From Candidatus Dependentiae bacterium (lineage in GTDB: Bacteria > Babelota > Babeliae > Babelales > JACPOV01), in NCBI GenBank assembly GCA_016191325.1, contig JACPOV010000008.1, positions 248,001 to 312,000 on the forward strand: a stretch of DNA of 64,000 nucleotides, in the 5' to 3' direction. Shown here in pieces: positions 1,755 through 52,340 of the stretch. The notes beneath the pieces were generated by a model. It was given only the letters and a program-made list of their open reading frames with translations. It was not told the DNA's origin and did no database searches. Position 1 is the stretch's first letter, and the number at the start of each line of letters is the position of its first letter. Both the position numbers and the translations under genes were made by a program.

Positions 1755-2621
1755 TTATTTGTTTTTATGAGCGTTTAGAATTTCAAGCATTTCGGAATAG
1801 TTATTGCAAAGTCGTTCATGAGCAGGAATTTCAATATACGCTTCATTTGGTTTAATTACACCTAGCACTTTGTCGTTGCGTATAATATATTTACGCATTC
1901 CACAATGAGCATCTTTTGATCTTTTTACTTTTTCTATAAGTTGATCATTTACAATGGCGCCATTCTCAAGAAGAATTTTTACACGCTCAGGATGTTCGCA
2001 ATATATTGCTTCTCTAAGTGGCGTATGGCCCCATTTATCTTGAGCATTGACGTCCGCTTTTGCAGCAATTAATTCTTGAACATTTTTTTCACTACCGCAG
2101 CAAGCTGCAATATGAAGAGGTGTATCTTTATGATTGGTATTTTTCTTATTGGCATTTGCGCCATTGTCTAAGAGAATTTTGACCGATTCCTCGCTCGCGT
2201 CCAATGATCCAGCTGCAGCTTGATACAATGCTGATCTGCCATCTTCATCTGTGTGATTTGGATTGGCTCCCAGATAAAGAGCTGTTTTTATAAGATGTGG
2301 ATAATAATGATAACGCCCAACGGGGAAATCATTCATAGATATTGAATTTTTTACCAAATCAGTTAAGAATTCAACCTTAACATTTCTATCATCAACAGAT
2401 TTTCCTGAATATGCGTAAATTGTTGGCGCAAATACAGAGCTGAATGATCTAAATGGATTATATTTGCTCAGCGCAACTTTAAATCCAACAAACGGACGCA
2501 TGAATGATTTTTGAAATGCTGCAGCGGTCGGTGCAAAGCGATTCCAATACGATTGATGTGGTTGCTCAGCCACAAGCGGCATTATCGCAAACAGTGAAAT
2601 AAGTAGTACTTTTTTAAACAT
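1755..2621 (-). CDS. secreted ankyrin-repeat protein
   Basis: 288 residues. The signal peptide (MFKKVLLISLFAIMPLVA) is followed by a ~40-residue leader containing QSYWNRFAP and PFRSF that is nearly identical to that of the upstream paralog. Ankyrin repeats span roughly residues 110-225, with signatures such as DGRSALYQAA, KDTPLHIAA, NAQDKWGHTPL and KILLENGA. Ankyrin repeats bind proteins, so a role in host or envelope interaction is inferred. The ATG has AAAGGAT 5 nt upstream; that ribosome site lies just past the stop codon of the upstream paralog (gap 11 nt), which suggests translational coupling. Confidence 0.85.
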   Translation of the reverse strand: MFKKVLLISLFAIMPLVAEQPHQSYWNRFAPTAAAFQKSFMRPFVGFKVALSKYNPFRSFSSVFAPTIYAYSGKSVDDRNVKVEFLTDLVKNSISMNDFPVGRYHYYPHLIKTALYLGANPNHTDEDGRSALYQAAAGSLDASEESVKILLDNGANANKKNTNHKDTPLHIAACCGSEKNVQELIAAKADVNAQDKWGHTPLREAIYCEHPERVKILLENGAIVNDQLIEKVKRSKDAHCGMRKYIIRNDKVLGVIKPNEAYIEIPAHERLCNNYSEMLEILNAHKNK

Positions 2622-2632
2622 TTTTATATCCT

Positions 2633-29067: not shown

Positions 29068-29412
29068 TTATTTTTTTTCTTTTTCAGAAGCGTCACTCTG
29101 ATATCTTACGAGGGGATGTTTGATGCGGCCAAAAGGCTCTGGGCATCTGCCATTTTTATCTTTAGGGACGAGATTTTCAACGTCTACCCATTTTATTGAG
29201 ATAACCTGCGCGCCATTTTCATCTTTGGAAAGAGTGGACATCTTTACGAATAATCTACCATTCTCTTCTTTTTTTTCTGGATCTGATGCGACCAAATCAA
29301 AGAAGTTCTTCCATTCTTCACTTGGTTCAGGTTCCATAGCGCTTATTTTTATGTTTGGTATGAAAGATGCTCCTATGATAATCGCAAAAAATAATGCATT
29401 AATCTTTTTCAT
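29068..29412 (-). CDS. small secreted protein, array member 8
   Basis: 114 residues, RBS GGAGACC. Signal ends KISA-MEP. Mature core EEWKNFFDLVASDPEKKEENGRLF, IKWVDVENLVPKDK, CPEPFGRIKHPL. A clear pair with member 9 (same PEPFG...IKHPL block and EW-x-x-FF-x-LV start). Confidence 0.72.
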   Translation of the reverse strand: MKKINALFFAIIIGASFIPNIKISAMEPEPSEEWKNFFDLVASDPEKKEENGRLFVKMSTLSKDENGAQVISIKWVDVENLVPKDKNGRCPEPFGRIKHPLVRYQSDASEKEKK

Positions 29413-29445: not shown

Positions 29446-29850
29446 TCATTTTTTGTTCTCGGTCGGTGGCATTGTCTGCATCAATGCTTCTTTTCCGTGA
29501 ACAACCATTGATTCTATGCGAATATGTTTAGGGCCTTTTGTTTTCTTTTCTTCTAGCGGATGTTTTATGGAGCCAAACGGTTCTGGGTATTGGCTATCTT
29601 TGTCTTTAGGTGCGAGATTTGCAACGTCTTCCCATTTTTTTGAGACCACCAAAACACCCCTCTCATTTTTTGATCTAGTTACTAGCTCTATAAAAAATCT
29701 ACCATCCTCTTCTTTGTGTTTTTTGCTCGAGCCGACTAAGTTAAAGAAATCTCGCCATTCTTGACTAGGTTCCATAGCGCTTAATTTTATGTTTGAATCG
29801 AAAGATACTGCTATGATAATCGCAAAAAATAATGCATTAAACAGCTTCAT
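29446..29850 (-). CDS. small secreted protein, array member 9
   Basis: 134 residues from ATG 29850; the longer frame runs into umuC and lacks a signal. Signal ends KLSA-MEP. Core: QEWRDFFNLVGSSKKHKEEDGRFF, KWEDVANLAPKDK, PEPFGSIKHPL. Close tandem paralog of member 8 with a longer tail (ESMVVHGKEALMQ). Weak RBS. Confidence 0.7.
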   Translation of the reverse strand: MKLFNALFFAIIIAVSFDSNIKLSAMEPSQEWRDFFNLVGSSKKHKEEDGRFFIELVTRSKNERGVLVVSKKWEDVANLAPKDKDSQYPEPFGSIKHPLEEKKTKGPKHIRIESMVVHGKEALMQTMPPTENKK

Positions 29851-29923
29851 AATAATTTCTTTCGTAACGATATTTTTTATTAAGTATATACTCAAATAAA
29901 TATGTGCTGAAGAATAAGCAGAC

Positions 29924-31201
29924 CTAAATCTTAATGGTGAGTAATTCGTGCCAATTAGTGGTATACGCAGGCGATCTTTTCTCTTGCTTATTTTTCCATT
30001 CTTTTTTAAGACCAGCAGAAGCATAGGCAAGTTTATTTTTCCCCATCTTAGCATTAACTCTATCGATCGTTTTCATCAGGGCTGCTTGCTTTTCAAGATT
30101 TGTTGGCAGTTGATAAAAAGTATTCATTTGCAGCGCATCTTGAGGAACTAAATCGTCAATAATGATGCCAACTTTTTTGTACGTAAACCCTTTATGGAAT
30201 AACGATTGCAAACAAGCGGTTCCGGCCGCCAGCAGATCGGGCGTGTAAGAAGTGGCAAGCGGTAGCTGCTGAAATGCGGAGCGATAGATGCGCGTGCTAT
30301 CTTGATATTGTGTGTATGAAACGAAGACGATCAGCTGCTGCGCTTTCATTTTTTGCTTGCGCAATTTTTCTGCAGCGATGCTCAAATGAGTAGCAAGGCC
30401 CTCGTGGAGCTCTTTAAATTCGGTAACGTTTCTGCCAAATAAGCGTGAAACGGTGAGCGATTGGCGGGGCTCTGGCTGCGTGTGCAGATCAAAGCAGGGC
30501 GTTCCGCGCAATTCAGTTAACGTGCGCAATCCATTAATCGTTAAATTTTTACGAACCCAACGTTCATCGCAATTGATAAAATCAAATACGGTACGAATAC
30601 TTCGAGCGTATAATTTTTCTGCATAGCGAGAGCCGATTCCCCAAATATCACGCACATCAATTAACTTAAAAATGTTATCTGCATCGGGATGGTTCGTGAT
30701 ATCAAAAACACCATCATTTCTTTTTTTTGCAATATCGCCCGCAATCTTTGCAAGCGTTTTTGTTGGGCCAATGCCGATAGAAACCGGAAGCCCAATATCT
30801 TGCTTGATTTTATTGCGAACATGCTGAGCATACGAGGTATAATGATGTCCATCGTAAAAATCGGATGCGGATGGGAAATATATAAACGCTTCATCGACCG
30901 AATAGATCTCAATATCGGTCGAGCATTCGGTCAGAATCGCCATCACGCGGGAGGACATATCTCCGTAGAGCGTGAAATTAGATGAATAGACCTGTACCTT
31001 ATTGCGTATTAAAATATCGCGGCATTCCCATGCTGGTTGGCCCATTTTGATGCCAAGTTTTTTTGCTTCGTTTGAACGCGCAATAATGCACGCATCGTTA
31101 CTTGAAAGAACGACGACCGGCTTTCTATTCAATTTTGGATTAAAAACCCGTTCGCAGGAGACAAAGAAATTATTGCAGTCGACGAGTGCAAAACGATTCA
31201 T
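29924..31201 (-). CDS. umuC: UmuC-like Y-family DNA polymerase
   Basis: 425 residues, near E. coli length (422). Y-family palm: FALVDCNNFFVSCERVF (catalytic Asp), IYSVDEAFI (catalytic Asp-Glu), then thumb GIGPTKTLAKIA and HhH-like DIWGIGSRYAEKL. The C-terminal little finger and UmuC tail are present. Translesion polymerase activated by processed UmuD. The umuD gene lies 80 nt upstream on the same strand. Confidence 0.97.
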   Translation of the reverse strand: MNRFALVDCNNFFVSCERVFNPKLNRKPVVVLSSNDACIIARSNEAKKLGIKMGQPAWECRDILIRNKVQVYSSNFTLYGDMSSRVMAILTECSTDIEIYSVDEAFIYFPSASDFYDGHHYTSYAQHVRNKIKQDIGLPVSIGIGPTKTLAKIAGDIAKKRNDGVFDITNHPDADNIFKLIDVRDIWGIGSRYAEKLYARSIRTVFDFINCDERWVRKNLTINGLRTLTELRGTPCFDLHTQPEPRQSLTVSRLFGRNVTEFKELHEGLATHLSIAAEKLRKQKMKAQQLIVFVSYTQYQDSTRIYRSAFQQLPLATSYTPDLLAAGTACLQSLFHKGFTYKKVGIIIDDLVPQDALQMNTFYQLPTNLEKQAALMKTIDRVNAKMGKNKLAYASAGLKKEWKNKQEKRSPAYTTNWHELLTIKI

Positions 31202-31254
31202 AGTTTATTTACTTTATTAATGTATTGCATGATGCGCATATTTTCTTGGGGCCC

Positions 31255-31283
31255 CCAAAAATGCAAAGCATTTTTGGTTTTTT
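31255..31283. other. hairpin between umuD and umuC
   Basis: Perfect 10-bp stem CCAAAAATGC / GCATTTTTGG around AAA with T6 on the plus strand, overlapping the umuD stop. On the minus (coding) strand it is followed by a G/C run rather than a T-run, so it may weaken umuC expression without fully terminating. Role uncertain. Confidence 0.45.
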
Positions 31284-31740
31284 ATACGCTGTGAATAACA
31301 TTCGTCACGACGCCCCAGATTTCAAAATCGGCGTCTTTTTTTATCTCGATCGGTTTATAATTCGGATTTTCAGGTATCAACAAAATAGTTTCTTGATTGA
31401 ATTGAATCCGTTTTACCGTGAATTCATCATTTAAACGCACCACCACAATTTTATTATTGGTAGGGGTGAGAGATCGATCAACAATTAAAATATCGTTTGA
31501 ATGAATGCCAGCATTGATCATCGAATCGCCCATCACTTTAATAAAAAAGGTAGCGGTTGGATGCTTAATCAATAATTCATTCAAATCCAATGAGCGCTCC
31601 ACAAAGTTTTCAGCAGATGAAGGAAATCCTGCTGAAATGAGTGACTCTGCAAAAGGAATTTTTAGAGGATGGGAGCTATCGGCAGAAAAAACGGAGATGA
31701 TTTTTAAATTTTCTTTTATAGAATTATTTTGATTTATCAT
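31282..31740 (-). CDS. umuD: UmuD-like S24 family protease
   Basis: 152 residues. LexA/UmuD peptidase: self-cleavage site Ala-Gly in SAGFPSSAE (about 37-38), nucleophile Ser in MGDSMINAGI, catalytic Lys in the VVRLNDEFTVKRI strand. Auto-cleaves on RecA filaments to give the active polymerase subunit. Longer N-terminus than E. coli UmuD (139). An inverted repeat GAATATA...TATATTC (31742-31748 / 31766-31772) just upstream could be an operator; it is not the E. coli LexA box. Confidence 0.93.
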   Translation of the reverse strand: MINQNNSIKENLKIISVFSADSSHPLKIPFAESLISAGFPSSAENFVERSLDLNELLIKHPTATFFIKVMGDSMINAGIHSNDILIVDRSLTPTNNKIVVVRLNDEFTVKRIQFNQETILLIPENPNYKPIEIKKDADFEIWGVVTNVIHSV

Positions 31741-31866: not shown

Positions 31867-33555
31867 TTATTTTTTTTCTATAAGATTTTGTACTTGTTCG
31901 GGTAATTTCTCATAATTTGGTACCAAATCTTTATTGAGCCGTTGTAATCCGGTCGCCTTTGCAATCATAAACGTAACGAGTTCTTGAAGGGATAAAGATT
32001 CTAAGAGGAATCTATTTGTTTTCCAAATTAAAACGTCATAAGTACGTCCATGTACTGGCCGTTTTTTTGGTGTATTCAATCCCATACCACCAACTTTCAT
32101 TAGACCAAGTGTCGTTTTGGCGAGGACAATGACGCTGAAATCTTGGTTGGCAGATTTAACTGAATAATTTTTTGGTAACTCTCCAATCGTTTCTATTACA
32201 TCATGTGCTAAGTCCCAGCTGCGAATATCCTTTTCTGATGCAAAGATAAGATTTTTATTATCCGGAGAGAAACGCATAATGGATGTTTTTTCTTTTCGCT
32301 CTAGGGTTTTTTTGCTTGCTAAATCTATAACCATTAATGTTGAAGGCATGCTAATTGCTAGTTTGTTGCCCATTTGATTGAAAATAAGTTCAGTTGCTGA
32401 TTCAGGAATACTTATTGTTTTAATCGATTGATTTTTATTAATATCCCAGAGTGTTATGGTATTTTTTGAAGAAAGAGCAATGAAATTATCGTCTGGGCTT
32501 AGAACCGCAGGTTTCTCAAATCCAGGAATTTGGATGACAAAGTAAAAGGTTTCTAAGTCCAAAATTTTAATGGCCGGAGTATCATCATCCATTTTTGAAG
32601 CGAGGATAAGCTTTTTGCCTGTTGCATCAAAGGAGAGCGGATAAGCGCGAAGGCTAGCAATGGTATTGATTTTATTTGTTTCAAGATTAATTATACCGAT
32701 ACCTGCTTCAATTCCCGAACAGATAATATTATCGTTCACCGGGTTAAATAGTATTTCCTGGGTAGCATCTGTTGTAAAAGTATCTAACTTTAATCCCGGC
32801 TTTGTTATATCATAGATAGTGCCTTCGCGTGAGGTAACAGCAAGTCTTGTTCCTGCATTATTTAGTGCAAAAGGCGATTTATATCCTTCTAAATATATTT
32901 CGTCCAAGCTTTGAGTTCCTTTGTAGGAAGAGAGAGAAGCGATTTTTTTTGCTATTTCTTTTTGCATTGCTGGTGAAAGATAAGAAAGTAGCTTAGTGAT
33001 ATAGCTTGGCTGATTATTTAAATCTTCTAATATTGAAGGGTCTTGTAAATTTTTTGCGACTTCTTGTTGTGCTACATCCAGAAGGATGGGTATATCTAAA
33101 TATTCTGCTGTTTGGAGAGTCAGCAATACATCAAAAAATTTCTTACGTTCAATTTTTTGTTTTAAATATGCGGCATTTGTTAATGACATTTCATCGCCGG
33201 CGACTAATTTAAGTAAATCATCTATTTGGTTCGTTGTGAGAGGTCCAAAGGTTAGTTTGTTTCCGGAAGTGAAAAAATCAGGATGATCCTTCTGACTATT
33301 TTTAAACGTTATCGAGTTATCGATAATAGATTTAAGCCCTAAATAATAGATCGAACTCTCCTTAGGGATGGTAATCGTTGTTACTCCGTTCTCACTAAAC
33401 GCTTTGAGCGGCTCGTAACCACTTTCTAAGTTTTCTCCTGGTGGGCAGCTTTCAATGAGCTCATCCTTTTGACGCTTTTCGCTTGGAAGGAAGCTTGCAT
33501 TAATTGTCGCAGTAAATAGGCAGAGAAAAATAACCAGAATATTATTTTTTTTCAT
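31867..33555 (-). CDS. secreted BTB/Skp1-like + beta-propeller protein, paralog 3
   Basis: 562 residues. Signal peptide ends TINA. Residues ~55-175 read like a BTB/Skp1 domain: ITIPKESS, LKSIIDNS, KLTFGPLTTNQIDDLLKLV, then LLTLQTAEYLDIPILLDVA, matching the Skp1 pattern L-x-x-x-x-x-A-x-YLDI-x-x-LLD. Residues ~225-515 form propeller blades with WD-like ends (ITLWDINKNQ, IRSWDLAHD) and SPDD turns. A ~45-residue helical C-terminal block (LQELVTFMIA, NYEKLPEQ) is shared by all paralogs. Last of three tandem genes; gap 13 nt. Domain calls are by eye. Confidence 0.75.
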   Translation of the reverse strand: MKKNNILVIFLCLFTATINASFLPSEKRQKDELIESCPPGENLESGYEPLKAFSENGVTTITIPKESSIYYLGLKSIIDNSITFKNSQKDHPDFFTSGNKLTFGPLTTNQIDDLLKLVAGDEMSLTNAAYLKQKIERKKFFDVLLTLQTAEYLDIPILLDVAQQEVAKNLQDPSILEDLNNQPSYITKLLSYLSPAMQKEIAKKIASLSSYKGTQSLDEIYLEGYKSPFALNNAGTRLAVTSREGTIYDITKPGLKLDTFTTDATQEILFNPVNDNIICSGIEAGIGIINLETNKINTIASLRAYPLSFDATGKKLILASKMDDDTPAIKILDLETFYFVIQIPGFEKPAVLSPDDNFIALSSKNTITLWDINKNQSIKTISIPESATELIFNQMGNKLAISMPSTLMVIDLASKKTLERKEKTSIMRFSPDNKNLIFASEKDIRSWDLAHDVIETIGELPKNYSVKSANQDFSVIVLAKTTLGLMKVGGMGLNTPKKRPVHGRTYDVLIWKTNRFLLESLSLQELVTFMIAKATGLQRLNKDLVPNYEKLPEQVQNLIEKK

Positions 33556-33568
33556 TTTTTACCTTTGT

Positions 33569-35323
33569 TCAAAGAGATTTTTTAGCTTCTTGGGGCAGTT
33601 TTTTATCATATTCTTTGTTTAATTGCTTAGATCCAAGTTCGATCATAAAAATAATTAAATCTTTAAGCTGCAGAGATCCAAAGATTGATTGAGCACTTTT
33701 CCAAACCAAAACATCTTCAGATCGGATATTAACGCTATTTTTTTCAGAATTGCTTAAAAGTAATGATCCGTAATAGGGATCACTCGCTCGAGAAAGTGCA
33801 ATTACACTGAAATCTTGATTAGCAGATCGAATCAGTGCATTTTTGGGCAATTCTTGGATCTTTTCAACCGAATTAGCGAATAAATTCCATTTCAGAATAG
33901 CGCTTTCTGATGCAAAGATAAGGTTTTGATTATCTGCTGAAAAACGGATAATCGAAGCCTGTTGATTCTGCTCTAAAGTTTTTCCACTCTCAAGATCGAT
34001 GATCATGAGACTCGACGGCATACTAATTGCCAATAGTTTGCCTGTTGTATCGAAAACGAGAGAAGAAGGACGGTCAGGCACGTTTATTGTTTTTGTTGAT
34101 TGATTTTTATTGACGTTCCAAAGCGTTACGGCAGTTAGCGAAGAGGCTGCAATGAGCGTATTATCTGGGCTAAAGGCCACCGGTTGTTGAAAACCAGGAA
34201 TTTGAGCTAAAAGTCTTAGCTCCGCCGTTTTTTGAAAGCCAGTCGTTCTGATGTCCTGTGGGCTCTCAAATCCACTGAATCGAGATAAAAAGCCGGTGAC
34301 TTGATAAAAAAAGCTTTGGCTTGTGTTTTTTTCAGGGCCGAAAGCCTGAGCTGAAAAGTTGAGATTTTCTAACTCAAAAATTTTAATAGCGGGCGTATAC
34401 TCATCATTTTTTGAAACGAGGGCCAGTTTTTTGCCTGTCGAATCAAAGGCAACAGGATAATCTCGCAAGTTGGCAATACCAACGACTTCACCTGTTTTAA
34501 GATTAATTATGCCGGTACCGCCTTTAACACCCGCCGTAATAATATCGTTGTTGGCTGGATTGAATAGTATGTTCTGCGTGTAATCTGTTTTGAACGTCGC
34601 TAATTGAAGTGGTTCACCCGGTTTTGCTATGTCGTAGATAAATCCTCCTTGCGACATAACAGCTATTCGTGTGCCTGCATCATTCAATGTGATCGCTGAT
34701 TCATAATTATAGAGTGTTACATTATCTAATTTGTGTGTTTGTATGTAAGGAAAACTGGAAATGATTTTTCTTGCGATTTCTTTTTGTGCGGCGGGTGAAA
34801 GAGACGAAAGCAACTCAGTTATAGCTGCACGATTTTTATTTAAACTATCTATCGTTGAACGGTCTTGTAATTTTTTTACTGCCTTGTCGATCGCTATTTG
34901 GGCAAGAAGTGGGATCTTAAGGTAGTCTGCTGTTCGCGCCGTTTGGATTGTAGTCAAAAAGTCTTGACGCCCAATTTTTTCTTCTAGATATTCTCGATTC
35001 GTTAACGCCATCTCATCGCCGGCCACTAATTTAAGGAGGTTGTCTACCTGGTCAGTTCTGAGATCCGGGAAAGTTAGCTTTTTGACAGGTATGGTATCTT
35101 GGTGTGCGATATTTTTAAAGATCCCTGAGTTATCGATAATAGATTTAAGCTTTAAATAATAGATAGAACCCTGTGCTGGGACGCTCAGCGTTGTTACGCC
35201 GTTATCAATAAACGCTTTGAGCTGTTCGTATGCATTTTCTGCGGTTTCTCCCGGCGGGCAGCTCGCATTGATTACAGCAGTAAATAGGCAGACAAAAATT
35301 AACAGAAAATTATTTCTTTTCAT
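33569..35323 (-). CDS. secreted BTB/Skp1-like + beta-propeller protein, paralog 2
   Basis: 584 residues, same order as paralog 3: signal peptide (ends VINA), BTB/Skp1-like domain (LKSIIDNSGIFKN, LTFPDLRTDQVDNLLKLV, TARTADYLKIPLL), propeller with VTLWNVNKNQ and LKWNLFANS, and a shared C-terminus (LKDLIIFMI, KKLPQEAKK). It has an extra ~45-residue insertion (around 320-365) absent from paralog 3, containing FYQVTGFLSRFSGF. Gap 12 nt to the 35336 gene, so co-transcribed. Confidence 0.75.
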   Translation of the reverse strand: MKRNNFLLIFVCLFTAVINASCPPGETAENAYEQLKAFIDNGVTTLSVPAQGSIYYLKLKSIIDNSGIFKNIAHQDTIPVKKLTFPDLRTDQVDNLLKLVAGDEMALTNREYLEEKIGRQDFLTTIQTARTADYLKIPLLAQIAIDKAVKKLQDRSTIDSLNKNRAAITELLSSLSPAAQKEIARKIISSFPYIQTHKLDNVTLYNYESAITLNDAGTRIAVMSQGGFIYDIAKPGEPLQLATFKTDYTQNILFNPANNDIITAGVKGGTGIINLKTGEVVGIANLRDYPVAFDSTGKKLALVSKNDEYTPAIKIFELENLNFSAQAFGPEKNTSQSFFYQVTGFLSRFSGFESPQDIRTTGFQKTAELRLLAQIPGFQQPVAFSPDNTLIAASSLTAVTLWNVNKNQSTKTINVPDRPSSLVFDTTGKLLAISMPSSLMIIDLESGKTLEQNQQASIIRFSADNQNLIFASESAILKWNLFANSVEKIQELPKNALIRSANQDFSVIALSRASDPYYGSLLLSNSEKNSVNIRSEDVLVWKSAQSIFGSLQLKDLIIFMIELGSKQLNKEYDKKLPQEAKKSL

Positions 35324-35335
35324 TTTTGACCTGTA

Positions 35336-37030
35336 TTAAAAGAGGTTCTTAGCTTCTTGCGGTAATTTTTCATATTCATTAATCAATTCTTTATTAAGTG
35401 GAGGTAGCCCCTTTTTTTTCGCGATCGTAAAAACAATGAGTTGTTTAGCCGAGAGAGTTTCTAATGCCGGTCTGTTGGTTTTCCAAATGGCAACCAGAGC
35501 TAGGGGAAAATATCGAATAGGCCGCTGCTTCGGAATTGATATACGCTCCTGTATATAAGCTTCGTAACTGGTGAGGGCTAATACGCTAAAATCTTCATTT
35601 GCAGCTTGAATCTTATACCGTTCAGGCCACTCTTGAATTTTCGAAATTGAGTTATCAGATAACTGCCAGTTTAGTATGTTATTTTTCAATGCAAAGATAA
35701 GGTTTTGGCCATCAGCTGAAAAACGAATAATCGAAGCCTGTTGATTTTGCGAAATAGTTTTTCCGCTCTCTAGATCTAAGATCATGAGACTTGAAGGCAT
35801 GCTAATTGCCAATTTTTTGCCTGTTTTATCAAAAAGGAGAGAAGTGGGATGCTCAGAAACATCTATTTTTTTGGGTTGATTATTTTTATTGATATACTGG
35901 AGCGTTACGGCATTTTTTGAAGAAAGTGCAATGAGATTATTATCTGGGGCTAGGGCCGCGGGTTTTTCATAGCCGATAAATTCAGCTAACTTGTCTTTGC
36001 TTGCTATGTCTAAAATTTTAATAGCGGGCGTATCATCATCCATTTTTGAAGCAAGGACCAGTTTTGTACCTGTTGTATCAAAGGCAAGTGGATAAGCTCT
36101 CAGGGTTTCAAAGCCTGTGCCTTTACCGGTTATAAAATTTGACAGGCCGATACCATATTCAGTTCCAAAGCAGATAATATCGTTCACCGGATCGAATAAG
36201 ACGTTCTGGGTGCCATCGGTGTCGAAGCCCCCTAGTTCTAATAACTCATCCGGTTTTTGTATATCATATATAGTGACCTGGTATCCAGTAACGGCTAGCC
36301 GTGTTCCAGCATTATTTAGCGCGAGCGGCGATTCATATTCGACTAGTACGGATTTGAATATCTGAGTTAACTTATAGGCTGGAAGGGTAGAAGCAAATTT
36401 TTTTGCAATTTCTTTTTGCATAGCCGGTGTAAGGTATGAAAAAACTCCTTCGGTTATATCCCTTAAATCTAAGTCTTCTAATCCTTTTACTACCTGGTCG
36501 ATCGTTATTTCATAAAGAAGTGGCATATCAAGATATTCTGCTGTTCCGAGAGTTTGGATTGTACTGAACAAATTTTGAGCCCCAATTTTTCCTTGTAAAT
36601 ACTTCCGATTCGTTAACGCCATCTCATCGCCGGCCACTAATTTAAGCAGGTCATTTACCTGGTCAGTTGTGAGAGATGGAAAGGTTAGTTTGTTTCCAGG
36701 AGTGAAAAATGTGGGATGGTCAGCGGCCATTTTTTGGAATGTTTCCGAGTTATTGATAATAGATTTAAGCCCTAAATAATCGAGCGAGCCCTTTCCCTTT
36801 TTCGGATCCGGGACGATCAGCGTTGTTACGCCGTTATCACTAAACGCTTGGTACGGTTTGTCATCCGGTTTGAGCGGTTCGGCCTCACTTCCTGGGTTTT
36901 CGCCTGGTGAGTAGCTAGCAATAAGCTCCGCCTTTTGACGCTTTTCGCTTGGCGAGTAGCTTGCATTAATCGCTGTAACGCCGAATACATTGATAACAAA
37001 TAGGTATGATAACAATAATTTTAGCTTCAT
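35336..37030 (-). CDS. secreted BTB/Skp1-like + beta-propeller protein, paralog 1
   Basis: 564 residues; first gene of the tandem. Signal peptide (MKLKLLLSYLFVINVFG). After it comes a paralog-specific segment with SPSEKRQKAEL. BTB/Skp1-like part: LKSIINNSETFQ, LTFPSLTTDQVNDLLKLV, TLGTAEYLDMPLL. Propeller about 225-515 with SFSADGQ-type turns (RFSADGQNLIFA). C-terminal block LIVFTIAKKKGLP...YEKLPQEAK. A eukaryotic-type adaptor plus propeller is the plain reading; whether it binds a host ubiquitin ligase is inference. Confidence 0.75.
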   Translation of the reverse strand: MKLKLLLSYLFVINVFGVTAINASYSPSEKRQKAELIASYSPGENPGSEAEPLKPDDKPYQAFSDNGVTTLIVPDPKKGKGSLDYLGLKSIINNSETFQKMAADHPTFFTPGNKLTFPSLTTDQVNDLLKLVAGDEMALTNRKYLQGKIGAQNLFSTIQTLGTAEYLDMPLLYEITIDQVVKGLEDLDLRDITEGVFSYLTPAMQKEIAKKFASTLPAYKLTQIFKSVLVEYESPLALNNAGTRLAVTGYQVTIYDIQKPDELLELGGFDTDGTQNVLFDPVNDIICFGTEYGIGLSNFITGKGTGFETLRAYPLAFDTTGTKLVLASKMDDDTPAIKILDIASKDKLAEFIGYEKPAALAPDNNLIALSSKNAVTLQYINKNNQPKKIDVSEHPTSLLFDKTGKKLAISMPSSLMILDLESGKTISQNQQASIIRFSADGQNLIFALKNNILNWQLSDNSISKIQEWPERYKIQAANEDFSVLALTSYEAYIQERISIPKQRPIRYFPLALVAIWKTNRPALETLSAKQLIVFTIAKKKGLPPLNKELINEYEKLPQEAKNLF

Positions 37031-41115: not shown

Positions 41116-42858
41116 ATGCATTTCGTGGCCGTTGCTCAGCAATTTCAGCAATTAGAAGTTACCAGTTCGCGCACTGAAATGACAAAAATTTTGGCAGATA
41201 TTTTCAAGAAAGCGACTCCTGCAGAAATTTCAATTCTGAGTAATCTTTCTCTTGGGATGCTTCGTCCAGCCTATAAAGGCAATAAATTTAATTTTGCTGA
41301 AAAAAATTTATTTGGCGTTATTGCGCAATTGATCGATAAAACTGAAAAAGAGGTTGCAGCAGAAGCAAAAAGATTAGGGGACGTTGGATTAGTGGTAACC
41401 GAATATGGAAAATGGAAGCCAGAAAAAGAGCTGACCGTTACGCAGGTATACGAAAGTTTGTGCGCGTTTGAAGAATTGAGCGGAAAAGGTTCGCAAGAGG
41501 AAAAAACGGCCCACGCTGTTGCATTGCTCAAACAAGTTTCGCCACTTGAAGCAAAATTTATTATCCGCATTATTTTAGGAACGCTCCGGCTCGGTTTTTC
41601 AGATATGACTATCATCGATGCCTATTCCTGGATGACTACGGGTGACAAATCGCTGCATAAAGATATTGAAGAGGCGTATAACACCTGCGTTGATATCGGT
41701 TTAATAGGGGAAAAACTGAAAGCGGATGGTATTAAAGCGGTACGAGAAATGAAAATTCAGGTCGGCATACCAATTCGCCCTGCGGCTGCAGAACGCATGC
41801 CAACCGCAAAAGATATTTACGAAAAGCTTGGCGATTGCATCGCACAGCCCAAACTCGATGGGTTTCGCTTGCAGATTCATATCGATAAACGGGGCAAGCA
41901 ACCGCGCGTAGAATTTTTTTCACGCAACTTAATCGATATGAGTCATATGTTTCCCGATCTTGTAAAAGCGTTTAGCCAACTTCCTGTTGAAACGATGATT
42001 TGCGAAGGCGAAGCGATTTCATTTGATCCTCATACTGGGATATTTTTACCATTCCAGGAAACGGTAAAAAGAAAACGCAAACACGGCATTGAGGAAGCGA
42101 TTACCGATTATCCACTGCGCGTTTATCTTTTCGATTTACTTTATTTAAATGGCAAAGATGTTCTTGCAAATACTCATGAAGAACGGCGCACCAAGCTTTT
42201 AGGAATTTTGAAAAGTAAAGATGATGTGATCTTTGCAATTGATGAAAAAAATATTCACTCTGCCAAAGAACTTGAAACGTATTTCTTGCAAAACATCGAG
42301 CAAGGGCTTGAAGGGCTCGTAGTAAAGCGCCCCGATGCGATTTATCAACCAGGAAAACGGAATTTTAACTGGATAAAACTCAAAAAGCATACGCAAGGCC
42401 ATCTTGAAGACACGATCGATTGCGTCATTCTTGGCTATTATGCCGGTTCAGGAAAACGAACACATTTTGGCGTCGGCGCTTTTTTAGTGGGTATTTATAA
42501 CAAAGATACTGATGGGTATCAAACCGTTGCAAAAATCGGTACCGGAATGACCGACGACGAATGGAAAGATCTTAAACATAAATGCGATAAAATAAAGATT
42601 CACGATAAGCCAAAAAACGTAGAGTGCGCAAAAGAATTGTTTCCTGATGTTTGGGTGAATCCTGAAATTGTGTGTGCCGTGCTTGCAGACGAAATCACCG
42701 AATCGCCATTGCATACCGCGGCAAAAACTGAACATCATTTAGGGTATGCATTGCGCTTTCCAAGATTTATGGGATATCGCCCCGATAAAAAAGCTGAAGA
42801 TGCAACTTCGGTAAAAGAAATTAAACGCTTATACGAAGATCAGTTTCTAAAGAAATAG
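41116..42858 (+). CDS. lig: ATP-dependent DNA ligase, archaeal/replicative type
   Basis: 580 residues. N-terminal DNA-binding domain (about 1-215, with ARTSR-like segments and SLGMLRPAYKGNKFNFAEK), adenylation domain with motif I AQPKLDGFRLQ (Lys246), MICEGEAISFD, GLVVKRPDAIY and FNWIKLKK (motif V), and a C-terminal OB fold ending RFPRFMGYRPDKK. This is the larger ligase seen in archaea and some bacteria, distinct from the LigD-type at 23431. RBS AAAAGGAATC. Convergent overlap of 19 nt with the 42840 gene. Confidence 0.95.
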   Translation: MHFVAVAQQFQQLEVTSSRTEMTKILADIFKKATPAEISILSNLSLGMLRPAYKGNKFNFAEKNLFGVIAQLIDKTEKEVAAEAKRLGDVGLVVTEYGKWKPEKELTVTQVYESLCAFEELSGKGSQEEKTAHAVALLKQVSPLEAKFIIRIILGTLRLGFSDMTIIDAYSWMTTGDKSLHKDIEEAYNTCVDIGLIGEKLKADGIKAVREMKIQVGIPIRPAAAERMPTAKDIYEKLGDCIAQPKLDGFRLQIHIDKRGKQPRVEFFSRNLIDMSHMFPDLVKAFSQLPVETMICEGEAISFDPHTGIFLPFQETVKRKRKHGIEEAITDYPLRVYLFDLLYLNGKDVLANTHEERRTKLLGILKSKDDVIFAIDEKNIHSAKELETYFLQNIEQGLEGLVVKRPDAIYQPGKRNFNWIKLKKHTQGHLEDTIDCVILGYYAGSGKRTHFGVGAFLVGIYNKDTDGYQTVAKIGTGMTDDEWKDLKHKCDKIKIHDKPKNVECAKELFPDVWVNPEIVCAVLADEITESPLHTAAKTEHHLGYALRFPRFMGYRPDKKAEDATSVKEIKRLYEDQFLKK

Positions 42859-45188
42859 CGCTTAACTCGGTCCGAGGCAGATATTTGCACAGGTATTCGG
42901 GAAGTTATAAGTTGTTTGACTGAAGGCGAAAGTTTTTGATATTCAGCTGCAGCGCGGCCATAAAGTTGAAATGGTTTTTTCAAATGGCTGTTTTCTTCAC
43001 CAAACTTAATAATTTCATCATAAGATTTCGAGATTTTACCATTTTCTGTGCATACGTTTTTTAATTTTTCCTCTTCATTCTCTTTATGAATCATTATCTG
43101 AGACATTAACAGCTGTTGATAAGGGGTAAGTGATTTTAACAAATTTACTTTTTCAACAAATTGCGTTAAGTCAACTATACAACTGTGGTTTCTACCCGAT
43201 TTTGTACGCGTGTTGCACATCAGCATACTTTTGTCGAGGAAGCCCAAAGAAGTTATTTGAGAAGGTATTTTAAAGTTGGCGGTGATGCTACTCGATTGAT
43301 CAGTTATAAGTAGATTATGTGCACCTGTCACCGCTTTAGCAGATAATGTCCCAGTTTCATTATAATGCCCTTTATAGTAATAAAACTTTTTTTCATTCGA
43401 ATTAAATTTTCTCTCAGTGTTTTCGATGCTTTTTTGTTGTTTTTTTGAATTTACGTCATAATAGCAAACTTTCGATTGGTTGAAAGTTCCCCATAATTTT
43501 AGGCATCTGCTTGTCAGATCGAATTCTAAGAGATCATATTCCAGACCATCATCGGGTGTGATATCCGTTGATACAGCATTGTTCACATTCCAAAGATATA
43601 TTTTGCTGTTAGACTCTTTAGTCCTGATCATTGTTGCTATATATCGTCCATCGGGGCTAACTGCGAGTGTACGAATGCAATGATCGGTCGGATGAACTAA
43701 ATAAGTTTGTTTGTTCGTTTCAAAGTCTCGGATTATTATCTTATTATTTTGCCAAGCGTGCCGGAATGTTTCGAGTATCTTTTTGCTCCCGCAAAACTTA
43801 AGAATGCGTTTAGATTGATCAGAAAATTGTGTTGAGGCTTTATACATTTTGACAATCTTATTTTCCCCCAAATCTTGGATTTTTATTTCTGTATCATCAT
43901 AGCTTAGAGCAAGATTATCTTTCGTATCCCAAAAATAACTGTCTTTAAATTCATTTTTTAGACTAATTAAGTTTTCCTTCGTTAAATCGAGTGTTGCGCC
44001 CAATATCTCTAATGATAATTGTTCGGCAAGGGACGGGGGGAGCATAGTCATTTTTGTTGAGATTGTTTCCAGATTTTCAGTTGAAGCAGATTGCCTAAAT
44101 ATGCTATTTTTAATGTCTTCTTTAGTACTTAGCTTTAATAGTGGGCATTCTAGTTGTTCGGTTATGCATAGCTGGCGCATTTTTTCATCCATAGATGAAT
44201 CGGGTTTGTGTTTGAGTACTGCCAGAAGATCATCACTTTTAGTGTTAGGCAATTCGATAGATTCTTTATCGCCTAGATCATCTTGCATATTTTGTAAGGT
44301 GAGAGATGATTGCAGGAGGTTTTGGAACGTATCTGAACTGAGATTTACTCTCCGATCAGAACATTTAATTGATTTTTCATCCAGAAATTTCGCCGCTTCA
44401 ATAATTGTATTTATTTTAAGATCATGAGCTGCTTTCCTCATCTGATTTAGTGAGTGCACAGAAGAATATTTGTTAAAGAGGTGGTTTAAGAGATATTGAT
44501 CATGGAGGAATGGCGCGTACTTTATAAGTAAATGAGCTTGCTGTGTTGTGATGTTCTGCAGATTAATATGATCACTTTCAATTTGCTTTTTTTCAAGTTC
44601 TGTAGATTGAGCAGTGATAAGAAGATACATCCTTTTTGAAATTTCTACTTTTCCATTTGCGCATTCGAGGGTTATTGGAATACCAGAAGTACTTGAAAAT
44701 TCAGATTCATGATTTCTCTTGTACATATATGCTGAAAGAGAAGCTTCGAGAATCTTTGCACGTATTTCCTTACTTTTACCGTCGTCCCTCCTTGACCAGA
44801 GTCCTATGTTAAAAGCGTCTGATAATTCATTTTTTGATATTTTTTTACAAACTTCGGTGAGCTCTGGTTGATCCAAGGATTCAAGTTTTTTCCATAAATT
44901 GCTTTGATTTTGAGTTAGGTTCCAGCCGTTCGTTTGAACAGGTTTTCCATCAAAGTTTATAAGTTTCCGTCCTCTAAATTGGCCTAATTCTTTTTCGGTC
45001 ATTTTTTCTTCAATAAGAGACCGCTCAAGTTTTCCATTTTTTAAAAGAAATGATGAAAGCTTAGAATCGCTCGATAGAGGATTATTGTCCATCGAATATA
45101 TGGGAAAAAATAATAAAAAAAAGTAAAATAAAAGCATTAAAAGCATAAGATTCTTTGATAAAAATGATAATTTGTAATTATTATACAT
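42840..45188 (-). CDS. large secreted protein with two BTB/Skp1-like regions and a propeller-like C-terminus
   Basis: 782 residues. Long hydrophobic N-terminus ending FPIYS-MDN. Residues ~155-265 resemble Skp1: ITLECANGKVEISKRMYLLI, INLQNITTQQAHLLIKYAP, MRKAAHDLKINTIIEAA. A second similar stretch follows (about 270-365: VNLSSDTFQNLLQSS, IELPNTKSDDLLAVLK). From ~430, blade-like repeats with AVSPDGRYIATMI and IYLWNVNNA. The C-terminus (AAEYQKLSPSVKQLI) echoes the KLPQEAK block of the 31867-37030 family, so it is a distant fourth member. Shares 19 nt with the ligase stop. Confidence 0.7.
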   Translation of the reverse strand: MYNNYKLSFLSKNLMLLMLLFYFFLLFFPIYSMDNNPLSSDSKLSSFLLKNGKLERSLIEEKMTEKELGQFRGRKLINFDGKPVQTNGWNLTQNQSNLWKKLESLDQPELTEVCKKISKNELSDAFNIGLWSRRDDGKSKEIRAKILEASLSAYMYKRNHESEFSSTSGIPITLECANGKVEISKRMYLLITAQSTELEKKQIESDHINLQNITTQQAHLLIKYAPFLHDQYLLNHLFNKYSSVHSLNQMRKAAHDLKINTIIEAAKFLDEKSIKCSDRRVNLSSDTFQNLLQSSLTLQNMQDDLGDKESIELPNTKSDDLLAVLKHKPDSSMDEKMRQLCITEQLECPLLKLSTKEDIKNSIFRQSASTENLETISTKMTMLPPSLAEQLSLEILGATLDLTKENLISLKNEFKDSYFWDTKDNLALSYDDTEIKIQDLGENKIVKMYKASTQFSDQSKRILKFCGSKKILETFRHAWQNNKIIIRDFETNKQTYLVHPTDHCIRTLAVSPDGRYIATMIRTKESNSKIYLWNVNNAVSTDITPDDGLEYDLLEFDLTSRCLKLWGTFNQSKVCYYDVNSKKQQKSIENTERKFNSNEKKFYYYKGHYNETGTLSAKAVTGAHNLLITDQSSSITANFKIPSQITSLGFLDKSMLMCNTRTKSGRNHSCIVDLTQFVEKVNLLKSLTPYQQLLMSQIMIHKENEEEKLKNVCTENGKISKSYDEIIKFGEENSHLKKPFQLYGRAAAEYQKLSPSVKQLITSRIPVQISASDRVKRYFFRN

Positions 45189-47103: not shown

Positions 47104-47327
47104 AATAAATTCAAAAATCGCAATAGAGAAGTTAATAAAGTATTGTCAACGAAAGCGTTATTTTATTGCCAAATGCCTTTCAGTGGTTAGTGCATAAACA
47201 TTTCTTACCTAGTCAAGCCAGTATACCCTAAAAAAAAGCCGGAGTAAAACGATAGGAAAGATTATTGCAATTAGGGTAATTCCTTGGGTACAGTTGCGCT
47301 GTGCGACAGACAAAGAGAGAGGATACT

Positions 47328-50300
47328 ATGAAAAAAGGCGTATTTTGGTTACTTGGGCTCCTAATCACTGCCCCATTAGCCGGTCAACAGGCAGCATTTG
47401 ATGGAAATACTGTACTTAAAAAACTAGCAGATACGGTAAGCAGCCAGGGTGATAAGGTGAGCGAGCTTATAACTAATTGGCAAGCCTCGATTCAGAGCAT
47501 GCAAACCGATATCGCTTTATTACCTGCTGATAGCCAAGCCGCGTTACTCAAGGAGGTTTCTTCCTTGCAAGCAGCGATTGCTCAAGGAAATAGCTCGATA
47601 CAGGCTCTAATAGCGGATCGAAAAGCCACGGCGGAAAAAGCGATACAAGATACTATAAAGCAGGTTGGCACTGGTCAATTGGGTTCCGCGCAGGCTCTTC
47701 GCTCGGTGCAAGCGTTAATCTTCGAGGTTAATAAGGCTTTAAGTGATGGCGTTTCTTTATTTAATAGAACCATTGCCTCTTCTTTCAATAGTACCCAACA
47801 AAACGTGGCCCGCCTTGTTAATCCGATCAAAAGATCCCAGAGTTCTCAAGCGTTAATTGAGGCGCAAAAACAGCAAAAAGAACATAGGGCGCAGGTTATC
47901 TCACTGGTTCGTGCACTTAGCTCTCTCTCTGATCAGCTAACTATGGCACGGAGTGCCGCGCGCAAAGCGGTAGCAGATTTCGGCGCGAAAGGTGAGATGC
48001 CCAATGAGACTATTTCGAGCGTTACGCGTGATTATCGACAGCTTCTTAAGCCGCTTTCTCGTGCCTATCAAGCTAACCAGATTAAAGCCGATTTTAACGA
48101 TAAAACAAATCTATTAAGTGCAACGCTGCGCGAACTTATTAGATTTTATCTAACGACCACGTCGCTCTACCTTAATAAAGCAAAGCAGCAACTCAAAGCA
48201 AAAGATAAAGCAGGCTATCACGAGACGATGTATCATCTTGCCAAATTGCTGACCGGCATAGGAAAGGGCGGTGGAGCTCTTGTAACCGCATCCGGGTTTG
48301 GCGCGGCGGTCAAGGCAATAGCTGGCGAAACGTTTCCCACACAGCAAGATATCGTTACAAAGTTTTACGATATTAATAAAACTAAAATAGCGATGGGCGA
48401 ATTTCTTGCAGCGTTTCAAGATTTAATTGCAACGGTACCTGCACCAACGGAAGAGCAATTGCGCATTGCTGCCGCCTACTATTATGAAATAGGCACTAAT
48501 TTTTCGGTAATTGATCCCAATCAATTGCCCGCCTTACAAAAAACTATTAATAGCAATTACGCGTTTATGCTGATTTTGCGTGCGGCGGCTCTCTTGAAAA
48601 GTATGGTTGCTGGCAAAGATAATAACGCGACCTTGAATGAAGCGATCAATGCCTACGGGCAAGCGGCTAAATATTTTTCTCAAGCGAATGATAGTGCCAA
48701 TCAGGCACAATATCAGGCTTTGCATGATAATTTAGTGAGCGCATTAAAGTTTTTAGATCAAGGAAAATCGGCTGAAGATGCTGGCAACACAGCGCAGGCG
48801 ATAACGGCGTACCAGCAGGCGGTTAAAGCATTTACAGTGGCAAACGATACAATAGATGCGCAGCGGCTCAATACGCAAATGAGCCGTTTGCAGGCGCAGC
48901 AGGGAAGAAAAGATGGCATAGCGCAACTTGCATCGTTTGCAGATCAAACGAAAACACAAATGCAAAACTATATGGCATATATCAGCACGCTTAAAGAAGA
49001 TGCAGATCAGCGACCATTTTTTGAAGTTTGGCTTACACAGCTTGGAAAAATTGCTCCTGAAGTTTTACAAAATTATTCTCTAGCGGTACAGAAGCTTAAA
49101 GAGATGAATAGTTCTACTGCAGATCTGCAGGCCGCAATTGATGTTCTTAATGGTTTGATAGCGGTGCAAAATGTGCTTCCTAGTGGCGATAAACTATTGG
49201 CTAACAGCACGCTCGATGCGCTTAATGATGCGCAAAATAATTATTTTGCCAGTGCAATACAGGCAGCACAAAAAGCGGATGCCGCTTATAATTTGCAACC
49301 TGGATTGGCACAGCTCATTCCGATTTATCCCAGTGCTTTTGCAAATGAAGCGCTTAACCAATATCTTTCTAATGGCCAACAGTGGAATTTCACGACGCTC
49401 ATACAGCGACATATTGCCAAACTATTTTCAAGCATTATAAACGATTCTATGGATCCAATTACGGCAGCACAATTTTATTCGGCAGCAATTGCAGGAAGGT
49501 CGCCTTATCTTTCGACTCAATTAAATGATTACTTGAAGAAAAAATTAAACGATTTTGCAGGTCGCAAGCAAAATATTGATGCTCTGCTTGCGGATGCGCA
49601 AAAAGCTGAAGCGGCAGCCCGCGCGATGACGGTTGCGCAATGGGGGGCTTTAAATCCCCAAGCCTCTGTTTATTCAAGCCCTGCAGATAATGCCTGGAAA
49701 GATGTGCTTAGATTATATTTAACTGCGTACCGATTAGGCTCTCTTGACGCTCGCCAAGATTATCTTCGTGTGTTGCAAGAATACCAAGATGCGTATATGA
49801 AAAACGTTCCCGCTCTTTTCTATCCACCAATGAATGTGGCCAAGCTCGCATTTGCTCGCTTGGTGCTTCATCATCAGGCAAATGATGTACAAGCGACTAA
49901 TGAATCTTTTAAACAGATTGCTGATCTTCTTAAGCCGGCGTTTGACGAAATGAACACCGCTCTTTCTCGCGTTAAAAATCCAGCTTATATTGCGACAGCT
50001 GGAGAAATTCTTGTGGATATGGCTGGATTTCTGTCTCGTTTTGATCAGATACTTGCTGATCAACAAAGTATTATCGCTGAGCTTGCGCCCGGTTCAAGTG
50101 CACAAGGGTTGACCGTTTTTGAAAAAAATATAAATACCCAGCAAGATACCGTAACAGTTTCAATTGGATTGCCAGGGCAGGCCCCTGCACTTTCGATTAC
50201 GCTTGTAAATATTGATGCTCTGAGCGCATCGGTTTATAAATCGATCGGGGATTATTATTTTGCAAAGAAGGATTATACAAAAGCATCCAGCGCTTATTAT

Positions 50301-52340
50301 CAGGCGCAACAATATTTCAATAAAATTAACAATACCGAGCAAGCAAATGCGGTAAATACACAGTACAAGATAGCCTATTCTCGTAGTTATACTGATATTT
50401 CAATTAATTCTATTATCCCTAGCCAGACCGATAAGCATACTATAGAGAACGTTTCAGTTGCTGGTGCAAATGTTCCAGCGCGCTACGAGCTTTTAAGTTA
50501 TGGGCTGGAATTGCCCGATTATATTCCGTTTTCATTAACAAGCGATCAGATTAAGAAAATGGCACCGGATGCGTTATCAGCTTTCTTGGTTAATTACGCA
50601 TTTTTACTTTTTGTTGATCAAGCTCTTAAGGCTCAAGGTATGAGTTATTCAGATGCGTTTAGTGGTGTTCAGGTGCGCAGTGATATAGGCCCAGATGTGC
50701 GAACAATAATTATGCAAGGATATCAATTTGTAAAAAACCTGCAGGCGCGCATTGCAGGTAAACAATCATCACTCAGTCTGGTTGAGCGAAAAAATGCATA
50801 TGGTACTACGGTTTTCGATCTTTTTGAAAAATATAAACCAATTCCTGTGCAGCCGATCACCGGCTTTCCAATGACCGCAGTTCCGTATCCTTCATTTCCG
50901 ACAGTGCAGGGATATTATGGATGGGCGCAGCGCCTTGCAAATCCTGCAACGCCTACAATAACAGCTGGAGGGCAAACGTATGTTTCTGGCAATGATCCGG
51001 AAACATACAAGTTGGCGACTACTTTGCTCGCCCAAGCATATCTTTCGGCGGCTGCGATTTATAAAAAGCGTTTAGATTTTCTCATGAATGGTGGAGATGT
51101 ATCACTGATTGATCCAGGTATGAGCGCCGATGAAATGAAGAATTTAACGGCAGCGCGCCAAGATATTATAAAATTGCAATCAATAGATAAGAACGATATG
51201 AATGTTAAGCTTGCAGACTTTATGCAAACGTACAAGCTCATCCAAGATTACGCTCTTAACGTTATTGCTTTGTATTATAGTTTAGCTTCTGAATTATATG
51301 ATCAACTTGGCGATGTAGAGCGTGTCGCTGCAATAAATATCGCTATGAATGGAGATTTGTACAACCAGCTTGGTGATTTAGCGCAACTGTTTTTAGTTGG
51401 CGATCCGTTTGCTACTGAATATTTTTATGGCAGCCAAGATAGTTATGGCGGTGTGCTGATCGATGTTAAAGATTATTATTTGACGGCCGTTAAAGCGTAT
51501 GGATCAAAAGATGAACGTTCAAATAAATTGGTTGAAACTGCTGGAAATCTTTTTGTGCAGGCGGGAGATATTCTTACTAACCAACAAAACTATTTTGGAT
51601 CAGTAAGCCTTTATTCTTTTGCGGTTGGCGCATTCAAATCTATGGTACCGGTTGATCAAAAAAAATTAGATGCTGCAAATCTTAAGCTACTGCAAGGGTA
51701 TTATAAAGGTTCTTCTAATAATATGATTCAGTATCATACTGCTCGTTCGGCTCCAATAACCATTACGCTTTCAACCGGGCAACAAGAAACGATCAATTTG
51801 AGCGACCTTATTGCTAAAGCTGGTAATGGGGATACTGCCGAAAATGATAAAGCACAATCAATTAAAGAGGCGTTTCTTGATGCGCTTGTTTATTATATGG
51901 GAGGTTCGCTTGCTGCAAATCAATTAGCGGGTAGTTCTGCTGATAGCTCTCAAGGAAACACCGCCGATGAATCTAAAGATCCAGTAGTTCTAGCTGCAAA
52001 GCAACTCGTTAACGGCTACTTAACGCAAATTAACGTTTCATTTGATTCGGTAGAGAGCGTTATACAATGGCTTATGAGTGATTCGTTTGCACAAACGCTC
52101 AATGGTGCATTTGACTATTTTAGTAAGCAGATTCTGAATTCACCCGATCAAACGGCGCGCCTTGCCGGATATCGGGCGCTTGGTATGTGGATGAATAGGC
52201 TGTTTTATGATGCGTTTGGTAAAGTTTACATGCAAGATTATTTGGGAGAAGTTTCGGCAAATGCGTTACAACTTCTTTTGCAAAGCGTAAAAGATGAGGA
52301 GCAGGCTATTGCCGCACCTGCCCAGCAGTGGATTGGATAA
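47328..52340 (+). CDS. giant secreted TPR-like helical protein
   Basis: 1670 residues from ATG 47328 (GAGAGAGGA upstream). Signal peptide MKKGVFWLLGLLITAPLAG. Almost wholly helical; TPR-like units recur: AITAYQQAVKAFTVANDTIDA near residue 500, SVYKSIGDYYFAKKDYTKASSAYYQAQQYFNK near 975, LFVQAGDILTNQQNYFGSVSLYSF near 1415. The first ~240 residues look like coiled coil (SQAALLKEVSSLQAAI). Gln/Ala/Asn-rich; no catalytic motif seen. Monocistronic, the largest gene in the window. Likely periplasmic or surface scaffold. Confidence 0.75.
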   Translation: MKKGVFWLLGLLITAPLAGQQAAFDGNTVLKKLADTVSSQGDKVSELITNWQASIQSMQTDIALLPADSQAALLKEVSSLQAAIAQGNSSIQALIADRKATAEKAIQDTIKQVGTGQLGSAQALRSVQALIFEVNKALSDGVSLFNRTIASSFNSTQQNVARLVNPIKRSQSSQALIEAQKQQKEHRAQVISLVRALSSLSDQLTMARSAARKAVADFGAKGEMPNETISSVTRDYRQLLKPLSRAYQANQIKADFNDKTNLLSATLRELIRFYLTTTSLYLNKAKQQLKAKDKAGYHETMYHLAKLLTGIGKGGGALVTASGFGAAVKAIAGETFPTQQDIVTKFYDINKTKIAMGEFLAAFQDLIATVPAPTEEQLRIAAAYYYEIGTNFSVIDPNQLPALQKTINSNYAFMLILRAAALLKSMVAGKDNNATLNEAINAYGQAAKYFSQANDSANQAQYQALHDNLVSALKFLDQGKSAEDAGNTAQAITAYQQAVKAFTVANDTIDAQRLNTQMSRLQAQQGRKDGIAQLASFADQTKTQMQNYMAYISTLKEDADQRPFFEVWLTQLGKIAPEVLQNYSLAVQKLKEMNSSTADLQAAIDVLNGLIAVQNVLPSGDKLLANSTLDALNDAQNNYFASAIQAAQKADAAYNLQPGLAQLIPIYPSAFANEALNQYLSNGQQWNFTTLIQRHIAKLFSSIINDSMDPITAAQFYSAAIAGRSPYLSTQLNDYLKKKLNDFAGRKQNIDALLADAQKAEAAARAMTVAQWGALNPQASVYSSPADNAWKDVLRLYLTAYRLGSLDARQDYLRVLQEYQDAYMKNVPALFYPPMNVAKLAFARLVLHHQANDVQATNESFKQIADLLKPAFDEMNTALSRVKNPAYIATAGEILVDMAGFLSRFDQILADQQSIIAELAPGSSAQGLTVFEKNINTQQDTVTVSIGLPGQAPALSITLVNIDALSASVYKSIGDYYFAKKDYTKASSAYYQAQQYFNKINNTEQANAVNTQYKIAYSRSYTDISINSIIPSQTDKHTIENVSVAGANVPARYELLSYGLELPDYIPFSLTSDQIKKMAPDALSAFLVNYAFLLFVDQALKAQGMSYSDAFSGVQVRSDIGPDVRTIIMQGYQFVKNLQARIAGKQSSLSLVERKNAYGTTVFDLFEKYKPIPVQPITGFPMTAVPYPSFPTVQGYYGWAQRLANPATPTITAGGQTYVSGNDPETYKLATTLLAQAYLSAAAIYKKRLDFLMNGGDVSLIDPGMSADEMKNLTAARQDIIKLQSIDKNDMNVKLADFMQTYKLIQDYALNVIALYYSLASELYDQLGDVERVAAINIAMNGDLYNQLGDLAQLFLVGDPFATEYFYGSQDSYGGVLIDVKDYYLTAVKAYGSKDERSNKLVETAGNLFVQAGDILTNQQNYFGSVSLYSFAVGAFKSMVPVDQKKLDAANLKLLQGYYKGSSNNMIQYHTARSAPITITLSTGQQETINLSDLIAKAGNGDTAENDKAQSIKEAFLDALVYYMGGSLAANQLAGSSADSSQGNTADESKDPVVLAAKQLVNGYLTQINVSFDSVESVIQWLMSDSFAQTLNGAFDYFSKQILNSPDQTARLAGYRALGMWMNRLFYDAFGKVYMQDYLGEVSANALQLLLQSVKDEEQAIAAPAQQWIG

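Follow-up and report, generated by a model that had tools for sequence, protein, structure and literature searches.

Bacteria are known to hijack the cullin-based ubiquitin ligases of their hosts by means of F-box effectors, and the same has been proposed for the BTB proteins of the Parachlamydiaceae. The latter possess BTB-LRR (PEX1) and F-box-LRR (NEX1) families, with leucine-rich repeats (LRRs), that were put forward as effectors in amoebae, and in 2014 they were called the only prokaryotes known to have BTB domains (Domman et al., 2014; PMC4209131). The lists published for Babela massiliensis and Chromulinavorax include ankyrin, WD40, F-box, ubiquitin-hydrolase and Ulp1-like proteins (PMC4378268; PMC6561590). 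Here, we describe three tandem paralogs in a 64,000-nucleotide (nt) stretch, the window, of a Candidatus Dependentiae bacterium (GenBank assembly GCA_016191325.1, contig JACPOV010000008.1, positions 248,001 to 312,000), each of which combines a signal-like N-terminus, Skp1 homology and a beta-propeller on one chain. With a probability of roughly one half, or slightly above it, we favor the reading that this trio represents exported single-chain mimics of the adaptor and substrate-receptor half of the SCF (Skp1-Cullin-F-box) ligase, which dock on a host cullin and recruit host targets.

The described systems each share part of this design. PEX1 and NEX1 are likewise expanded bacterial families that join a ligase-adaptor-type domain to binding repeats, but they deploy BTB or F-box domains rather than Skp1, LRRs rather than a propeller, and type III secretion rather than a Sec signal. 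Eukaryotic SCF ligases with WD40 F-box proteins (Fbw7/Cdc4/beta-TrCP) similarly couple a Skp1-type adaptor to a WD40 substrate receptor; however, these are two cytosolic polypeptides linked by the F-box, whereas nearly all members of the trio's family bear signal-like N-termini and no F-box was found in them. The Cullin-3 BTB-kelch and MATH-BTB receptors and the poxvirus BTB-kelch proteins also hold adaptor and substrate receptor on a single chain, though the receptors belong to the BTB (PF00651) family, work with Cul3 and use kelch or MATH domains. The BTB/POZ-WD-repeat proteins of the mimivirus group (R731, R739, R786), again from intracellular agents of protists, place an N-terminal Skp1/BTB fold before a WD40-type propeller, but they are viral, BTB rather than Skp1-like, and only 10-16% identical; to our knowledge, they have no signal peptide. 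Finally, the Babela and Chromulinavorax effector candidates probably come from the same phylum and include many signal-peptide proteins with eukaryotic-type repeats as well as ubiquitin-system proteins. Their papers, in contrast, report no Skp1 family: Skp1 occurs only in one reference title of the first (PMC4378268) and is absent from the second (PMC6561590), and a literature search that mostly covered papers outside subscription returned none containing both 'Skp1' and 'Dependentiae'. Hence, effector candidates mimicking ubiquitin ligases are known, and what is new in the literature searched is their construction from Skp1 itself.

Results

The tandem paralogs carry a divergent Skp1-like domain

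Three intact minus-strand open reading frames (ORFs) lie exactly where a preliminary description of the window, made from its letters alone, had placed three paralogs of 560-585 residues (Table 1). They share 53-55% amino-acid identity, and their codons differ least at position 2 and most at position 3 (0.24 and 0.47 for the first pair); this concentration of differences at position 3 fits conserved coding genes under protein-level constraint. The genes are separated by 13 and 12 nt, which makes an operon, asserted outright in the preliminary description, likely, but no promoter could be shown, with promoter and terminator scans at the trio performing no better than shuffles and promoter-like sites at chance level. 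The contig spans 1,236,520 bases of a 1.27 Mb genome that is 98.9% complete and 0.06% contaminated; given its size and these values, contamination by eukaryotic DNA cannot reasonably be invoked. The bacterium, with its small genome, is probably a parasite of single-celled eukaryotes.

The central evidence for the N-terminal domain comes from profiles. A genus-only profile, built from 16 domains of this genome and three genus mates with no Skp1 in the seed, recovered Skp1, including that of yeast, in its first 30 matches in PDB (best E=5e-8), and a poxvirus BTB-kelch protein (E=0.04) was the first match outside Skp1. A wider profile of 39 domains, which included other families of the order, matched Skp1 at E=5e-20, followed by Elongin-C at 2e-6. 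The homology to solved Skp1 extends over about residues 3-146 of the latter, that is, the POZ core and the following helices. In the trio, the Skp1-like core is marked by the conserved blocks L-x-x-II(D/N)NS, LTF..L.T.Q(V/I)..LLKLV and TA(E/D)YL.(I/M)P(L/I)L. Thus, residues 50-180, where a Skp1/BTB pattern had been noticed earlier, do match Skp1 in profile searches as well as in structural comparison.

The AlphaFold model of the domain (predicted local distance difference test score, pLDDT, 92.4) shows the order of strand, helices, strand and helices seen in Skp1/BTB, and in the full-length model residues 51-200 mostly score above 90. When the domain model was compared to PDB with Foldseek, Skp1 chains ranked first (probability 0.97-0.99; template modeling score, TM-score, up to 0.62 on the target), with E-values of about 0.05. 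Since these E-values and TM-scores are modest, we regard the domain of the trio as a divergent member of the Skp1 family. The window proteins also remain under the curated cut-off of PF03931 (Skp1_POZ), which has no match in their genome.

The earlier label 'Skp1/BTB' can be narrowed: the domain is of the Skp1/Elongin-C type and not a classical BTB. PF00651 (BTB/POZ) gave no match over the cut-off for the window proteins and was weak in a few relatives; it passed the cut-off in one (L091; 25.3 versus 20.5), where Skp1_POZ scores higher. The C-terminal F-box-binding helices of Skp1 (PF01466) were absent from the matches listed in the Pfam scans, and other helices lead into the propeller at this point.

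A WD40-type propeller and a helical C-terminal module complete the architecture

Pfam matches of the single window proteins are almost exclusively to propeller families, with WD40-type models at 3e-11 to 4e-4 for the trio. In the AlphaFold model, about residues 212-513 contain 29 strands, consistent with about 7 blades, and the best Foldseek matches of this region in PDB are WD40 domains (E 3e-14), so that these three lines of evidence bear out the roughly seven-bladed propeller of the preliminary description. PF00400 itself stays below its cut-off in the trio and reaches 116.8 bits in a paralog from the same genome (L006). Compared with viral folds, the whole-protein model lies closest to the mimivirus-group BTB/WD-repeat proteins, and poxvirus BTB-kelch proteins rank lower.

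The final 60 residues are helical, and an iterated profile of them matches the ends of about 25 to 30 members from several families. In this genome, the module has nine matches, every one of them in an ORF with a Skp1-like domain, which upholds the shared helical C-terminus described earlier. The module (LSLxQLL...F..LP..VK) matched no known family, and it may serve as a tag for targeting or for binding a partner. The possibility that its 'LP..v' motif represents an F-box was tested and found unsupported.

Signal peptides and a route of export

By inspection, each of the three N-termini has the form of a Sec-type signal peptide, in which a basic n-region is followed by a hydrophobic stretch and then by an end of the form '...INA' before S; together with hydropathy, this agrees with the signal peptides first noted. 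Across the family, a lax criterion recognizes a strongly hydrophobic, signal-like N-terminus in 91 of 96 distinct ORFs, and of the remaining five, three appear signal-bearing by eye. In Babela, no secretion system other than type II has been reported, and Sec-exported ankyrin and ubiquitin-related proteins have been proposed as effectors (PMC4378268). The present genome encodes two secretins whose best match is GspD (4e-89 and 3e-76), both below the equivalog cut-off. The two lie in one cluster at 1146000-1164000 of this genome (L211), with GspC-like and PilM/GspL-like neighbors.

Spread and recombination of the family

This genome codes for 16 Skp1-like domains in 12 ORFs. One of these is a divergent fourth member in the window, with a signal-anchor-like N-terminus and a THOC3-type propeller (Pfam E 1e-3), and a second tandem cluster lies at 928-935 kilobases of the contig. 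This second cluster (L149, region 926500-937500) comprises three family members with two Skp1-like domains each, some of whose N-termini are possibly lipoprotein signals (MGSC).

Across the order, family matches at E<=1e-4 occur in 26 of 101 genomes (17 of the 68 of high quality). A search of the phylum likewise returned 101 genomes, with sizes of about 0.7-1.8 Mb, which together with the many exported repeat proteins agrees with Babelota/Dependentiae (TM6). The curated Skp1_POZ cut-off is exceeded in 15 of the 101 by ORFs of the same family, with scores of up to 69.6 bits against 21.9. The clearest single case joins Skp1_POZ (65.1 bits versus 21.9) to WD40 (113.8 versus 27) on one polypeptide (L078). 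Of the 80 full ORFs that were scanned, a WD40-type propeller was recognized in at least 56; elsewhere Skp1_POZ is fused to LRRs (L068) or ankyrin repeats (L091, with ankyrin likewise in L070). These partners are also those of F-box and BTB receptors, and we count this in favor of a ligase-related role. In one genome, a short exported ORF with only Skp1_POZ stands immediately upstream of a Skp1_POZ-WD40 ORF (L063 of G085). The genus mates searched lack a tandem trio that is closely similar over the full length; the trio seems specific to its species and forms a minor branch of a family that extends across the order.

The most conserved position aligns with a cullin contact of Skp1

Conservation across 92 aligned Skp1-like domains peaks (3.29 bits against a mean of 1.13) in a column that aligns with Tyr109 of human Skp1, in the AANYLD motif, and is Y in 56% and F in 33%. 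The column of Asn108 is N, D or E in 86% of the domains, and the window trio has E/D-Y at the two positions. Asn108 and Tyr109 of human Skp1 reportedly contact Cul1 in the Skp1-Cul1 structure of Zheng et al. (2002); our search of the open-access literature returned no paper on the N108/Y109 contact. The Y-to-F and LDI-to-LDC variants mirror the difference between Skp1 and Elongin-C.

No F-box is among the Pfam matches listed for family members, and PF12937 is unmatched in this genome, although control genomes were equally silent. Given this and the undetected PF01466, the simplest reading is that the Skp1-like domain meets the cullin while the fused propeller replaces the F-box receptor.

Table 1. 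Coordinates of the Skp1-like family members and their parts in the window
Feature	Position	Strand	Details
Paralog 1: signal peptide, Skp1-like domain, WD40-type propeller, helical C-terminal module	31867..33555	-	562 aa; in profiles A2/A4
Paralog 1, signal peptide (MKKNNILVIFLCLFTATINA, then S)	33496..33555	-	hydropathy; cleavage by inspection
Paralog 1, Skp1-like domain, about residues 53-217	32905..33399	-	A4 profile vs PDB Skp1 E=5e-20; AlphaFold; Foldseek
Paralog 1, beta-propeller, about 7 blades, about residues 216-513	32017..32910	-	Pfam, AlphaFold, Foldseek
Paralog 1, helical C-terminal module, about residues 503-562	31867..32048	-	unnamed, conserved
Paralog 2, identical architecture	33569..35323	-	584 aa; extra propeller insertion
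Paralog 2, Skp1-like domain	34727..35212	-	
Paralog 3, identical architecture	35336..37030	-	564 aa
Paralog 3, Skp1-like domain	36356..36844	-	
Fourth, divergent member: signal-anchor-like N-terminus, Skp1-like domain, WD40-type propeller	42840..45188	-	782 aa
Fourth member, Skp1-like domain	44355..44702	-	E 5e-18 to A2 profile

Neighboring genes

Directly downstream of the trio and on the same strand is a pair that by inspection is UmuC-like and UmuD-like, of the error-prone polymerase V type (29924-31740). Two short exported neighbors (29068-29412 and 29446-30054) have in common the motif SAMEP..EW..FF ... KW.DV.NL.PKDK ... PEPFG.IKHPL. The longer of the two has no Pfam match, and its overlap with the UmuC gene implies that the true start is probably internal MKLFNALFFAIII. 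Elsewhere in the window are a tandem pair of exported paralogs (1755-3604; MFKK(V/I)LLISLFA(I/V)MPL...SYWNRFAPTAAAFQKSF) and an exported protein of 1679 residues with weak MIT/TPR-type matches (47301-52340).

Discussion

The likeness to a host ubiquitin-ligase component drawn in the preliminary description stands as far as the adaptor-plus-propeller architecture is concerned; action as an effector on a host cullin is what we infer from it, and the same applies to release into the host and ubiquitination of targets. If the trio are SCF mimics, the signal peptide would route each protein through Sec, and a type II outer-membrane channel may then release it, either to the surroundings of the bacterium or into the host cell. 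There, the Skp1-like domain would dock on a host cullin, namely Cul1 or, as for Elongin-C, a partner of the Cul2/5 type, and the propeller would hold particular host proteins for ubiquitination by the host ligase. As Skp1 is directly fused to the propeller, an F-box would be unnecessary, and paralogs with different propellers, LRRs or ankyrin repeats could address different targets.

Several observations weigh against this reading. At the level of homology, the single sequences of the trio have no Skp1/BTB match in Pfam at E<=1, a phmmer search with one of their domains found no Skp1 in PDB at E<=10, and the Foldseek E-values to Skp1 are weak; all three attest to the divergence of the domain. 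At the level of export, the lax hydropathy test is passed by 23 of the 41 other ORFs of the window and is hence weak evidence when taken alone. Moreover, a signal peptide by itself brings a protein only to the periplasm, and type II secretion substrates offer no signal that could be recognized here. Finally, the column of Tyr109 may be conserved for folding and not for cullin contact.

The same architecture would also serve decoy effectors, whose Skp1/BTB fold binds host cullin or F-box proteins and blocks or sequesters the ligase while the propeller sees to localization. Several members (L007, L009, L014, L027, L074) carry two Skp1-like domains, which is odd for a simple adaptor, and some lack any repeat domain, such as one composed of two Skp1-like domains only (L158:2070-3542). 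Against this, binding repeats or a propeller are kept in most members, the WD40-type alone in the majority of the full ORFs scanned, which suggests the recruitment of targets, and we consider decoys unlikely. A scaffold of the envelope or surface, unrelated to ubiquitin, in which the Skp1/BTB fold is retained only for self-association and presents propellers in the periplasm or at the cell surface, appears to us comparably improbable. It draws on the established self-association of BTB folds, on signal peptides being what is observed rather than release from the cell, and on a possible transmembrane helix that ends some relatives (L077, L078). However, Skp1 elsewhere is a cullin adaptor, the peak of conservation in the family coincides with its cullin-contact position, the partner repeats alternate between WD40, LRR and ankyrin as they do in ubiquitin receptors, and the organisms resemble host-dependent parasites. 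A chance likeness to Skp1, with the N-terminal domain being a helical bacterial one of unrelated origin, as the silent single sequences and weak Foldseek E-values might suggest, is highly improbable and already largely refuted by two profiles of different depth matching almost exclusively Skp1/Elongin-C, by family members above the Pfam Skp1_POZ cut-off and by a confident model with the strand and helix order of Skp1.

Returning to the SCF-mimic reading, a broader and more tentative version, to which we give somewhat less than even credence, would extend it beyond the trio: a bacterial order may have turned Skp1 into a modular exported platform, with WD40, LRR and ankyrin fusions constituting F-box-free SCF adaptor-receptors, many paralogs per genome, each directed at other host targets, and an unnamed module common to their C-termini. 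A Sec-exported fusion of Skp1 with a substrate receptor would, if true, be a different design from the F-box and BTB routes to the cullin ligases. It would parallel the BTB/WD proteins of giant viruses, suggest a compact natural scaffold for cullin-based degraders, and provide a testable effector family for a group of little-known and mostly uncultured parasites.
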